Assembly: GCA_946491735.1 (NCBI GenBank)
Contig: CAMLYK010000004.1
Location: forward strand, 1 to 39,397
Direction of reading: 5' to 3'
DNA: 39,397 nucleotides
Source of the DNA: an uncultured Clostridia bacterium
GTDB taxonomy: Bacteria; Bacillota; Clostridia; Christensenellales; UBA1242
Shown one piece after another: positions 996 through 33,574 of the stretch; the stretch's first letter is position 1, and every line of letters begins with the position of its first letter. A program made the position numbers and the translations under genes. The notes below the pieces were generated by a model. That model was not told where the DNA came from. It searched no databases and saw only the letters and a list, made by a program, of their open reading frames with translations.

Positions 996-3638
996 ATGAA
1001 AAAATATGTTTATCTATTTAGTGAAGGTAATGCAAATATGCGTGAACTTCTAGGCGGCAAAGGTGCAAATCTAGCTGAAATGACAAGAATAGGACTTCCT
1101 GTTCCACAAGGTTTCACAATCTCTACTGAGGCATGCACTCAGTATTATGAAGATGGTCGTCAGATCAATCCATCAATTCAAAAAGAGATTATGGAAAACA
1201 TTGAAAAGATGGAGAAAATTACTGGCAAAAAATTTGGAGATAAAGAAAATCCATTGTTAGTGTCTGTTCGTTCTGGTGCACGTGCTTCTATGCCTGGAAT
1301 GATGGATACAATTTTGAATTTGGGACTTAATGAAGAAGTCGTTGAAACATTATCAAAGAAGAGTGGCAATCCGCGTTGGGCTTGGGACTGTTATCGTAGA
1401 TTCATACAGATGTTCAGTGACGTCGTAATGGAAGTGGGCAAAAAGTATTTTGAAAAACTTATTGACCAAATGAAAGAGAAAAAGGGCGTTGTGTATGATG
1501 TCGATTTGACAGCTGATGATTTGAAAGAATTGGCACGCGAATTCAAAGCTGAATACAAAAAACAGTTGGGTAAAGATTTCCCAACAGATCCAAAAGAACA
1601 ATTGTTTGAGGCTATCAAAGCAGTTTTCCGTTCATGGGACAATCCTCGTGCGAATATTTATCGTATGGATCATGATATACCTTATTCATGGGGTACAGCT
1701 GTCAATGTTCAGATGATGGCGTTTGGAAATATGGGAGACACTTCAGGAACAGGTGTTGCATTCACAAGAAATCCAGCGACTGGTGAAAAGGGCTTAATGG
1801 GTGAATTCTTGATCAATGCACAGGGTGAAGATGTTGTTGCTGGTGTGCGTACTCCAATGCCTATTGAGAAAATGGCAGAAGTTATGCCTGAAGTTTACAA
1901 TCAATTTAAAAAGATTTGTGATATTCTAGAAAATCATTATAGAGATATGCAAGACATGGAATTCACTATTGAAGATAAACATTTATATATGTTGCAGACT
2001 AGAAACGGTAAGCGTACAGCTGCCGCTGCTATCAAAATTGCTTGTGATTTGATAGATGAGGGAATGATCACAGAACAACAAGCCTTGATGCAGATTGATG
2101 CAAAATCACTTGATATGTTATTGCATCCTACATTTGATGCAAAAGCCCTTGCTGATGCAGATAAAAATAATGTTGTAGGAAAAGGTATAGCTGCATCTCC
2201 TGGCGCTGCAGCAGGTAAAATTGTGTTCACGGCAGAAGATGCTGTTGAATTGGGCAAGAAAAATGAAAAAGTTGTGCTAGTTCGTCTTGAGACCAGTCCA
2301 GAAGATATTGAAGGAATGAAATATGCACAAGGTATTTTGACAGTACGTGGTGGACAAACTTCACACGCAGCAGTTGTCGCTCGTGGTATGGGTACATGTT
2401 GTGTGTCTGGTTGTGGCGATATTAAAATGGATGAAGAAAATAAACAATTCACACTTGCAGGAAAAGTATTCCATGAAGGAGATGTATTAAGTTTGGACGG
2501 CTCTACTGGTAAAATCTATGATTGTTTGATCAAGACCGTTCCAGCTGATCCAAATAGTGGATATTTCGGTAGAATAATGAAATTGGCAGATAAATATAAA
2601 GCATTAGGAGTTAGAACAAATGCAGATACTCCACATGATGCTGAACGTGCTGCTGAATTGGGTGCACAGGGAATAGGATTGTGCCGAACAGAGCATATGT
2701 TCTTTGAACCAGATAGGATTGGCGCATTCCGTGAAATGATATGTGCTGATACGGTAGAAGAGAGAATCGAGGCATTGAATAAGATCGAACCTATGCAACA
2801 AAAAGACTTTGAAGGCTTAATGGAGGCGTTGAAAGGTCAACCTGTTACCATTCGTTTCTTGGATCCACCTTTGCATGAGTTTGTTCCAACATTAGAAGAA
2901 GATATTAAAGCACTTGCAAAGACACAAAACAAGACTGTTGCTCAGATCAAACAAATCATAAATGACTTGCACGAATTCAACCCTATGATGGGTCATCGTG
3001 GATGTCGACTAACTGTCACATATCCTGAGATTGCAGAAATGCAAACAAGAGCTGTAATCAAAGCGGCTATTAATGTTCAAAAAAGACATCCTGATTGGAA
3101 AGTTGAACCTGAAATCATGATCCCATTGGTTGGAGAAGTGAAAGAATTGGCATTTGTCAAGAAAATTGTTGTCAAAACTGCAGATGAAACTATTGCAAAA
3201 GCAAATGCAAAATTAAAATATGAAGTCGGCACAATGATTGAAATTCCAAGAGCTGCTTTGACTGCTGATGAAATAGCAAAAGAAGCTGAATTCTTCTGCT
3301 TTGGAACAAATGATTTGACTCAAATGACATTTGGATTTAGCCGTGACGATGCTGGTAAATTCTTGCCATCATATTATGCAAATAAGATTTATGAATCAGA
3401 TCCATTTGCTCGTCTAGACACTGTTGGAGTAGGCAAGTTGATGGAAATGGCAATCAAGCTTGGTAAATCAACTCGACCAGACTTGCATGCAGGTATATGT
3501 GGTGAACATGGTGGAGATCCTTCAAGTATTGAGTTCTGTCACAATATTGGACTTGACTATGTAAGTTGTTCACCTTTCCGCGTTCCAATCGCAAGGCTCG
3601 CAGCTGCTCAAGCGAACATTAAAAATCCAAGAAAATAA
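996..3638 (+). CDS. ppdK: Pyruvate, phosphate dikinase
   Basis: 880 aa; 'LLGGKGANLAEM', 'GGQTSHAAVVARGMGTCCVSG' phosphohistidine motif, 'GLCRTEHMFFE', C-terminal PEP-utilising domain; SD 'aaggag' before the ATG. Confidence 0.98.
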   Translation: MKKYVYLFSEGNANMRELLGGKGANLAEMTRIGLPVPQGFTISTEACTQYYEDGRQINPSIQKEIMENIEKMEKITGKKFGDKENPLLVSVRSGARASMPGMMDTILNLGLNEEVVETLSKKSGNPRWAWDCYRRFIQMFSDVVMEVGKKYFEKLIDQMKEKKGVVYDVDLTADDLKELAREFKAEYKKQLGKDFPTDPKEQLFEAIKAVFRSWDNPRANIYRMDHDIPYSWGTAVNVQMMAFGNMGDTSGTGVAFTRNPATGEKGLMGEFLINAQGEDVVAGVRTPMPIEKMAEVMPEVYNQFKKICDILENHYRDMQDMEFTIEDKHLYMLQTRNGKRTAAAAIKIACDLIDEGMITEQQALMQIDAKSLDMLLHPTFDAKALADADKNNVVGKGIAASPGAAAGKIVFTAEDAVELGKKNEKVVLVRLETSPEDIEGMKYAQGILTVRGGQTSHAAVVARGMGTCCVSGCGDIKMDEENKQFTLAGKVFHEGDVLSLDGSTGKIYDCLIKTVPADPNSGYFGRIMKLADKYKALGVRTNADTPHDAERAAELGAQGIGLCRTEHMFFEPDRIGAFREMICADTVEERIEALNKIEPMQQKDFEGLMEALKGQPVTIRFLDPPLHEFVPTLEEDIKALAKTQNKTVAQIKQIINDLHEFNPMMGHRGCRLTVTYPEIAEMQTRAVIKAAINVQKRHPDWKVEPEIMIPLVGEVKELAFVKKIVVKTADETIAKANAKLKYEVGTMIEIPRAALTADEIAKEAEFFCFGTNDLTQMTFGFSRDDAGKFLPSYYANKIYESDPFARLDTVGVGKLMEMAIKLGKSTRPDLHAGICGEHGGDPSSIEFCHNIGLDYVSCSPFRVPIARLAAAQANIKNPRK

Positions 3639-12331: not shown

Positions 12332-12997
12332 TTATCTTGCATTTGTTGATTGAGGGGATACAGCAGTTGGGTAAAGTGGCAAGTCGAATACACCTGGGCA
12401 AACATCATTACCTGTAAATGGTGTGCAAGGTGGAATTGGGCAATATCCATAACTTGGTACAAGTACGTCAACAACTGCGACAACTTTTAAGATTGTAGTT
12501 ACACAACCAGAGATTGTAAACCCACCTGTAGTAGTGTTGTAAACGCCACTGGCTATAACAGCACTGCCAAATGCCACAACATCAATTGGAGTAAGGGCAG
12601 GCTGAGGAACATATAGTATGACGTCTTGAGTCATAGTGATAGTACCTTCTGCTGTGCCTGGTACATTGTTTTGATCTGTATATGTAACTGTTACAGGTAT
12701 ATTGATATTAGCTTGAACACGTGCAAAGTTTGGTCTATCATCAAATCTAGTAATTGTCAAATTGCTGACCGTTGCAGTACTTCCTACTGAGTTTCCACTG
12801 ACAAAAGTTAAAGGAGTGGTAGGACCAGCAGGGTTAAAGTTAGTCAATGTTAGAGAATAGTCTTCAAGCTGTACTTGCGACATACAAGCATCAAAAACTT
12901 TAGTAGCTTGGATACAAATACGTTCACAAAGTCCATTCATAACATTGTTCGTTTGACCAGGGAATATTCCGGGTCTAGAATCTGTATAAAAAGACAT
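12332..12997 (-). CDS. Conserved uncharacterised cysteine-containing protein (possible surface/spore structural protein)
   Basis: 221 aa, no obvious signal peptide; 'NGLCERICIQATKVFDACMSQ', 'GYCPIPPCTPF', 'DVCPGVFDLPLYP'; beta-rich Thr/Val core; strong SD (aggagg) before the ATG. Confidence 0.7.
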   Translation of the reverse strand: MSFYTDSRPGIFPGQTNNVMNGLCERICIQATKVFDACMSQVQLEDYSLTLTNFNPAGPTTPLTFVSGNSVGSTATVSNLTITRFDDRPNFARVQANINIPVTVTYTDQNNVPGTAEGTITMTQDVILYVPQPALTPIDVVAFGSAVIASGVYNTTTGGFTISGCVTTILKVVAVVDVLVPSYGYCPIPPCTPFTGNDVCPGVFDLPLYPTAVSPQSTNAR

Positions 12998-31701: not shown

Positions 31702-31731
31702 TTGACATATTTTTACAAAATATGTTATAAA
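31702..31731 (+). promoter_or_regulatory. Promoter of paralogue A with inverted repeat in spacer
   Basis: TTGACA-18-TATAAA; inverted repeat CATATTTT-TAC-AAAATATG at 31706-31724. Confidence 0.72.
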
Positions 31732-31759
31732 CATAATAACAAATCAAAAGGAGTAAAAA

Positions 31760-32386
31760 ATGAAAAAGTTTTTATCAAAAATGCCAGTGATGATCGTGTT
31801 TTTGTCGCTAGCGGTAGTAGGACTATTATTTTATATTGTTATGCTTGCACGACCTGTCAGTTATGGAATGACTTATACTTGGAATCACATTGTGACAGAG
31901 GCTGATGCTTCTATATTTGGTGAAGTGGGTTCAGAAATTAATATGACTATCAAAATTAAAAATGATGAGAAAATGGAACAAACATTGTCATCCGAAAATA
32001 ACGGTGAGCCAGTTGAAGCTTGGATAGTTCGTAATGGAAACCAATTCATTATGATACCTGTGACAATGACGGAAGAAGAATATGATACTTTCGTAGAAGA
32101 ATTGAAAGCAGATGAAGCAGAATGGAATGCAATATGGGCAGGAGAAGGTGAAGGTATGCCTGTATTCAATGTGAATGCTTTCGGTATTAATGTTGATTTG
32201 AATGGAGTGAACATTGATATGACTTGCACGGGAGCAATAGTGTTTGCATCTGTGTTTGGTGCGGTTGAACTAATACTTATAACCTTTGCAATCCTATCTA
32301 CAATCTTTTATATAAAAGCTAGAAAGGATGGAACAGCAGAGGATTTATCTGATGTTGAACGAATAATTGACTCTCAATCTAACTAA
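31760..32386 (+). CDS. Uncharacterised two-TM membrane protein, paralogue A
   Basis: 208 aa; N-terminus MKKFLSKMPVMIV and C-terminal TM shared with the 32628-33236 protein; SD aaaggag. Confidence 0.8.
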   Translation: MKKFLSKMPVMIVFLSLAVVGLLFYIVMLARPVSYGMTYTWNHIVTEADASIFGEVGSEINMTIKIKNDEKMEQTLSSENNGEPVEAWIVRNGNQFIMIPVTMTEEEYDTFVEELKADEAEWNAIWAGEGEGMPVFNVNAFGINVDLNGVNIDMTCTGAIVFASVFGAVELILITFAILSTIFYIKARKDGTAEDLSDVERIIDSQSN

Positions 32387-32399
32387 ATTTAGTTAGATT
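32376..32399 (+). terminator. Rho-independent terminator overlapping the stop codon
   Basis: Perfect 24-nt palindrome aatctaactaaatttagttagatt followed by a T-run. Confidence 0.8.
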
Positions 32400-32568
32400 T
32401 TTTAATATTTCAAAATTAATATCAGAAATATTTATTTTTTCATATATATTATTGGTTTTAAATAATTTGTAAATTAATTTATAAAACATTAAAATTAATT
32501 ATTTAATATATATTTTCTATTATTTTTTTAAATATTTTTATTAATTATTTATTTTTTTAAAAAATTAT

Positions 32569-32598
32569 TTGACATATTTTTACAAAATATGATATAAA
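32569..32598 (+). promoter_or_regulatory. Promoter of paralogue B with identical inverted repeat
   Basis: TTGACA-18-TATAAA; CATATTTT-TAC-AAAATATG at 32573-32591. Confidence 0.72.
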
Positions 32599-32627
32599 CA
32601 TAATAATAAAAACAAAAAGAGTTGTTT

Positions 32628-33236
32628 ATGAAAAAGTTTTTATCAAAAATGCCAGTGATGATCGTATTATTATCACTAGCAGCAGTAGGGCTAGTATTCT
32701 ACATTGTAATGCTTGCTCGTCCGATCAGCTATGGGATGACTTATTCTTATACGCAGACAGTTGAGACTGAACAGGATGCAACTGAATCTGGACTGCCAAT
32801 TGGTTCAGAGGCTGGTATGTACATTAAATTTAATAGTGACTCAAGAGCAGTAGTTACCATGTCAGCAGGAGAAAATTCAATGACTACAGAGATGTGGGTC
32901 TTTCGCATTGGTAACAAGGTTGTAATACTTAATGCAGTTTCAGAAATGACTGAAGAAGAATATAATCAAGCAGTTGAAGCGATGAAAGCAGATGTAGATA
33001 CTTTCAATTCAAATGCGATAGATATCAATGCATTTAGAATGGCAAGTGATGATGGTAGTGAAAACATGACGTGTAATGGTGCAATCGTTTTTGCAGTCGT
33101 ATGGGCAGTTGTTGAAATAGCATTGATTGTATTTGCAGTATTGTCAACTTTATATTATGTTAAAGCGAAAAAGAATGTTTCAGATGACGCTGCAACTACT
33201 GCAGAAACCACTACAGACACTCAAGTTAGTGAATAA
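32628..33236 (+). CDS. Uncharacterised two-TM membrane protein, paralogue B
   Basis: ATG 32628; near-identical N-terminus (MKKFLSKMPVMIVLLSLAAVGLVFYIVMLARPISYGMTY) to the 31760-32386 product. Confidence 0.8.
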   Translation: MKKFLSKMPVMIVLLSLAAVGLVFYIVMLARPISYGMTYSYTQTVETEQDATESGLPIGSEAGMYIKFNSDSRAVVTMSAGENSMTTEMWVFRIGNKVVILNAVSEMTEEEYNQAVEAMKADVDTFNSNAIDINAFRMASDDGSENMTCNGAIVFAVVWAVVEIALIVFAVLSTLYYVKAKKNVSDDAATTAETTTDTQVSE

Positions 33237-33373: not shown

Positions 33374-33574
33374 TTAAAATGTAATAGAATCAAACACAGA
33401 GTTGGAAATAGGTTGAGTTGAACTAATCAATGGATCAACTATGCTACAAGGGCATAATCTATAGCAACAATTATTATTTACATTTCTGCAAACTGTATAG
33501 GCAGATAATGGAGTTGATAGGCTTGATACTCGAATACAATCACATCCTCCTATTCGATAGAAGAAATAAAACAT
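33374..33574 (-). CDS. Small cysteine-rich protein (66 aa, 7 Cys)
   Basis: Strong SD 'taggaggtaaatt' directly before the ATG on the minus strand; 'CDCIR...CRNVNNNCCYRLCPC'; terminator downstream. Confidence 0.65.
   Translation of the reverse strand: MFYFFYRIGGCDCIRVSSLSTPLSAYTVCRNVNNNCCYRLCPCSIVDPLISSTQPISNSVFDSITF

Follow-up and report, generated by a model that had tools for sequence, protein, structure and literature searches.

How do two adjacent genes come to encode small membrane proteins with nearly identical beginnings and strongly different outer domains, and what might such proteins be for? The question is raised by the genes P1 and P2 of an uncultured Clostridia bacterium, which lie in tandem on the plus strand where the preliminary description had placed them. 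The window, i.e., the whole stretch of DNA that was analysed, is the complete contig C4 (39,397 nucleotides) of genome G000 (883 kb), and the features of the pair are the following.

31702..31731, plus strand: putative promoter of P1, recognised by consensus match (TTGACA 31702-31707, TATAAA 31726-31731)
31706-31724 and 32573-32591: inverted repeat CATATTTT-tac-AAAATATG inside the promoters of P1 and P2, respectively, found by repeat search
31760..32386, plus strand: P1, 208 aa (ORF, hydropathy and charge, AlphaFold2 model with pLDDT 76, family members in relatives), with a short basic N-terminus, TM1 at about 8-30, ectodomain at about 33-153, TM2 at about 157-187 and a short tail
32376..32406, plus strand: putative rho-independent terminator of P1, AATCTAACTAAATTTAGTTAGATTTTTTAA, its stem overlapping the stop codon, recognised by eye
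32569..32598, plus strand: putative promoter of P2, recognised by consensus match (TTGACA 32569-32574, TATAAA 32593-32598)
32628..33236, plus strand: P2, 202 aa (ORF, AlphaFold2 model with pLDDT 74), with the same layout as P1
33251..33280, plus strand: putative terminator of P2, AAATCTAACGTTATCGTTAGATTTTTTT, with a stem sequence identical to that of the P1 terminator, recognised by eye

The start of P2 is the ATG at 32628; the ORF tool begins it instead at a TTG at 32622. Terminator-like hairpins (AATCTAAC...GTTAGATT) followed by a T-run were seen by eye 3' of both genes, and neither was listed by the terminator scanner, which demands at least three G-C pairs. With TTGACA and a TATAA-type -10 box before each of them, P1 and P2 each appear to be a promoter-gene-terminator unit of their own, as had been proposed, and the MTEEEY and MTCxGAIVFA motifs pointed out earlier are found in both proteins alike. 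The two strong hydrophobic segments, the basic N-terminus and the acidic loop (net charge -17 in P1 and -13 in P2) indicate, by the positive-inside rule, an N-in/C-in topology with the ectodomain outside.

The same inverted repeat is indeed present in both promoters, with four matches in the window (two sites on both strands) against 0.27 expected and none of 100 shuffles reaching four, and an 8-bp-arm repeat would arise by chance in a random promoter of the same composition with a probability of about 0.002. No further site with at most one mismatch was found elsewhere in the genome. Across the family, a perfect copy precedes only the two genes of G000 and the gene of G030; copy 2 of G005 has a near-perfect one, and in the remaining members the repeat is degraded or absent. 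The idea of a conserved operator was therefore dropped, as two sites in the genome that are not kept across the family do not make a regulon. In P1 and P2 the repeat is part of a homogenised tract of promoter and 5' coding sequence, and it is better read as a feature of a promoter that is probably shared by descent or local conversion.

P1 and P2, the sole family copies in their genome by a genome-wide count, are 50% identical overall (E 2e-47). The similarity is unevenly distributed, with identities of 0.90 in the N-terminal TM segment (N-TM), 0.36 in the ectodomain, 0.65 in TM2 and 0.19 in the tail, which bears out the earlier description of tandem paralogs with near-identical N-termini and diverged ectodomains and tails. 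The suggested comparison of dN/dS between termini and ectodomain gave a clear contrast at the protein level (0.046/0.79 in N-TM and 0.60/1.76 in the ectodomain, dS of TM2 being saturated) and none at synonymous sites, where differences are evenly high in the termini and the ectodomain (Fisher p = 0.69). An exception is the promoter with a roughly 13-codon 5' tract, which is about 96% identical. Since synonymous divergence is otherwise uniform, it is selection on the protein that keeps the N-termini nearly identical; the conserved N-TM thus results from selective constraint, with a contribution from the short homogenised tract at the 5' end. A recent duplication with gene conversion of the termini was rejected outside this tract by the synonymous-site test. 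Orthologs of P1 and P2 are present, in the same order, in the close relative G005. Their ectodomains share 63% and 59% identity with the corresponding ones of the window pair, compared with 36% between P1 and P2. Because G005 holds both orthologs in order, the duplication, or a joint acquisition of both genes, predates the split of G000 and G005, and the P1/P2 duplication is old.

The proteins belong to an undescribed family, in line with the earlier suggestion. Searches of Pfam, NCBIfam, PHROGs and PADLOC returned no match above curated cut-offs, with weak scattered matches only; a profile search of PDB sequences revealed no relative; and no description of the family was found in literature searches. 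Within the GTDB family of G000, profile matches are scattered patchily over 46 of 309 genomes, a few of them weak and probably due to chance; in the genus they occur in 19 of 34 genomes. At the order level, weak matches (E 1e-5 to 1e-2) were discarded, as those that were read (an FtsQ/DivIB-like protein, a putative lipoprotein, an HTH protein and an SbcC-like ATPase) were apparently chance matches. The ectodomain is about 110-120 residues long in the family, is predicted to fold as a beta-meander with one helix, and was net negative in all 49 aligned sequences (median -14).

Genomes carry one to three copies, in tandem in G000, G005, G007, G013 and G021. In the genus, the usual site lies between a conserved gene pair for a 5-TM and a 2-TM protein, in some genomes with an RsmC-like methyltransferase gene, and a ytxC-like gene, after which comes thrS; the site is intact, and the family gene absent, in several well-assembled congeners. 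In other genera, the gene stands alone beside unrelated housekeeping genes in varied contexts. A separate TTGAC(A)-type promoter lies a short way upstream of nearly every member read in the genus, and no neighbour is constant across the family loci. A partner gene or operon was rejected, as the upstream 5-TM and 2-TM genes and a Cys-rich microprotein occur in congeners without the family, and so was a phage or plasmid origin, as no relatives were found in phages, plasmids and viral contigs. The microprotein (66 aa, MFYFFYRIGGCDCIRV..., minus strand, 33374-33574 of the window) has a good ribosome-binding site and adjoins the ytxC-like gene; it is present in 28 of 34 congeners, some of which lack the two-TM family, and is therefore a core gene and not a partner of P1 and P2. 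At the usual family site, G001 (locus L077, 325-1200) carries another membrane protein of 291 aa with a C-terminus that looks SHOCT-like by eye. The copy in G413 (locus L145, about 3000-3636 after orientation) has an in-frame TAG at a tryptophan position and is either a pseudogene or an assembly error.

Whether divergence in place explains the variable ectodomain of the whole family was decided by comparisons between relatives. In one kind of case, the background is shared and the ectodomain is not. Copy 2 of G021 and copy 2 of G013 are 93-100% identical upstream, 83-100% in N-TM and 86-96% in TM2, and 23-76% identical in the ectodomain, with synonymous differences at 9 of 60 sites in the termini versus 48 of 70 in the ectodomain (Fisher p 7e-10); the same contrast separates the tandem copies 2 and 3 of G013 (p 3e-10). 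In G380 and G413, identity is 93-100% over several kb to each side and 71-85% along most of the ectodomain, where pS is 0.355 versus 0.083 in the flanking genes (p 3e-9). The lowest-identity window of the 930 covering 57 kb of alignable sequence in this pair, the one pair in which the genome-wide window rank was sampled, falls in the ectodomain. Between G025 and G028, the ectodomain is 61-69% identical between upstream promoter DNA at 100% and downstream ytxC at 99-100%. These two genomes are otherwise about 83% identical, and the 98-100% identity of the ytxC-like gene and of about 200 bp 5' of the family gene points to probable interspecies recombination outside the family gene as well.

In the other kind of case, the ectodomain or the gene is shared and the background is not. 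Ectodomain windows of G004, copy 1 of G005 and G025 are up to 97-99% identical at a regional mean of 78-80%, and none of the other windows, about 142-275 per pair, is equally similar. The 4.5 kb of upstream DNA rejects the grouping of these three genomes (AU p 0.0003); the ectodomain DNA supports it at 100/100 and rejects the background clade of G004, G025 and G028 (AU p 0.001). Islands of identity cover the family gene between G019 and G026 and among the g28 species G087, G144, G385 and G063, with gene dS mostly 0.02-0.23 and 0.57-1.8 in the neighbours. Pooled dN/dS, for pairs not all of which are independent, is 0.52 in the ectodomain, 0.16 in N-TM and 0.09 in the neighbours, i.e., below 1 throughout. 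Homologous recombination thus exchanges the segment that codes for the ectodomain, and in some clades the entire gene, with the TM ends and promoter retained, and in relatives the ectodomain changes largely by interspecies recombinational replacement, besides divergence in place. Duplication followed by ectodomain divergence, as first proposed, consequently describes the P1/P2 pair and not the family. All data are MAGs with one genome per species; assembly chimerism is an unlikely cause of the mosaics in the family as a whole, because a divergence of several percent persists in the exchanged segments, which come from many independent MAGs, although single cases may be chimeric. The cases were found by examining this family alone, so that "hot spot" is a local statement, and the gene may be one of several recombination hot spots, because interspecies recombination touches other segments too.

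We hypothesize that the family consists of membrane-anchored recognition, exclusion or immunity proteins whose ectodomain is swapped between species at conserved anchors, and we put the chance that this whole explanation is right at about one half. Through recombination, a species can keep the locus and change the ectodomain, and tandem copies make room for two or three ectodomain types per cell. The conserved ends would serve only as an anchor, and the ectodomain would recognise a diverse extracytoplasmic partner near the membrane. Swaps would be favoured because this partner varies, most simply as a phage DNA-entry factor, a membrane-acting bacteriocin or a competitor's toxin, and the protein would act as an exclusion or immunity factor against phages, bacteriocins or rivals. 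We prefer this role because the genes are accessory and stand-alone, form short tandem arrays and trade the outer domain alone. Neither inspection of neighbours nor the LXG search nor searches of phages, plasmids and viral contigs revealed a toxin, bacteriocin or phage partner; toxin-like neighbours were not recognised by eye at the family loci. The even synonymous divergence of P1 and P2, the exchange of other segments in these genomes, the pooled dN/dS below 1 and the non-significant structural matches also count against the explanation. Immunity to LXG/type VII toxins was rejected, as LXG (PF04740), the toxin class searched, is encoded in none of the 34 congeners. For phage superinfection exclusion by a moron, no relatives turned up in phages, plasmids or viral contigs, and the gene contexts are housekeeping genes. 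We tentatively suggest, as a narrower claim that is rather less than an even bet, that reduced-genome Clostridia draw membrane-tethered recognition ectodomains from a common interspecies pool and gain new specificities of immunity or exclusion by swapping them between conserved membrane anchors, with neither a toxin nor a mobile element linked to the genes.

Quorum receptors of the Agr and ComP type have a variable membrane or extracellular part that is exchangeable. The P1/P2 family likewise combines a conserved part with a variable, recombining recognition part; unlike these receptors, it is a single small protein without a kinase or a linked pheromone gene. Phage superinfection-exclusion proteins and orphan immunity proteins of bacteriocins and polymorphic toxins (PMC3482391 for immunity) resemble the family in being small, membrane-anchored, stand-alone proteins with their own promoter, and in being accessory, fast-evolving and arranged in variable tandem arrays; the family differs from them in that searches revealed neither a prophage context nor a toxin neighbour nor a sequence match.

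Another explanation is that the ectodomain is a calycin- or lipocalin-like sensor or carrier that binds a small amphipathic molecule, e.g., a bile acid or lipid, and that alleles are traded with the local chemistry. The AlphaFold2 models of P1 and P2, built with nine sequences as input, place a beta-meander and one or two helices between TM1 and TM2, the conserved EEEY segment being helical. The best Foldseek matches to the PDB were FABP, the periplasmic domain of ToxS, LolA and lipocalins for P1 (best E 0.011), and ToxS ranked first for P2, with E values of 0.01 or worse throughout and poor rmsd. As for an eight-stranded lipocalin-like barrel, the models show a meander of seven to eight strands plus a helix, with E 0.02-0.04 to ToxS. 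The calycin superfamily (lipocalin/FABP) gave no Pfam or PDB-sequence match above cut-off and no significant Foldseek match, so that a calycin-like fold is a lead only. Lipocalin-like periplasmic co-components of the VtrC/ToxS type, known from enteric Proteobacteria, evolve fast (PMC9214523), and P1 and P2 share with them the membrane anchor, the rapid evolution and the small beta-rich extracytoplasmic domain. However, they have two TMs instead of one, come from Clostridia and lack a cytoplasmic output domain; the membrane-bound winged-helix transcription factor gene adjacent in such systems is absent in the window and the other loci read, and neighbour contexts are not conserved beyond the genus. 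We consider a sensor or carrier function unlikely, if still worth keeping in mind.

It could also be that a non-essential gene in promiscuously recombining genomes is exchanged as a neutral by-product, its ends acting as homology arms without selection for specificities. Further exchanged patches nearby and the in-frame stop in G413 fit this, and ComEC, present in 32 of 34 congeners, makes DNA uptake possible, which is compatible with the explanation and not evidence of competence. However, the extreme window of the sampled regions falls in the ectodomain, in several clades and in opposite directions, and its dN/dS is about five times that of the neighbours, which makes a neutral origin quite unlikely. 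Antigenic variation driven by host immunity would account for the variable ectodomain, the recombination and the raised dN/dS, but a domain of about 115 residues tethered to the membrane at both ends would, in a presumed Gram-positive cell, sit beneath the wall with little exposure, and the few copies (one to three), the absence of silent cassettes and the apparent expression of both genes render it very improbable. The slimmest chance is left for simple tandem duplication with divergence in place, which stands for P1 and P2 only, with their uniform, saturated synonymous divergence and constrained N-TM, and is insufficient for the family, in whose mosaics synonymous divergence jumps at the ectodomain borders.

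If the recognition and exclusion reading is true, uncultured Clostridia with genomes of about 1 Mb harbour an undescribed recognition or defence gene family, whose specificity domain is carried from one species to another by homologous recombination at loci that stay the same. Neither domain libraries nor searches based on mobile elements or partner genes can detect genes of this kind, and their signature, a window of extreme identity or divergence in an ectodomain between conserved TM segments, could be scanned for in other lineages. Elsewhere in the window, the minus strand at 12332-12997 encodes a 221-aa Cys-containing protein with a spore-coat-type likeness.
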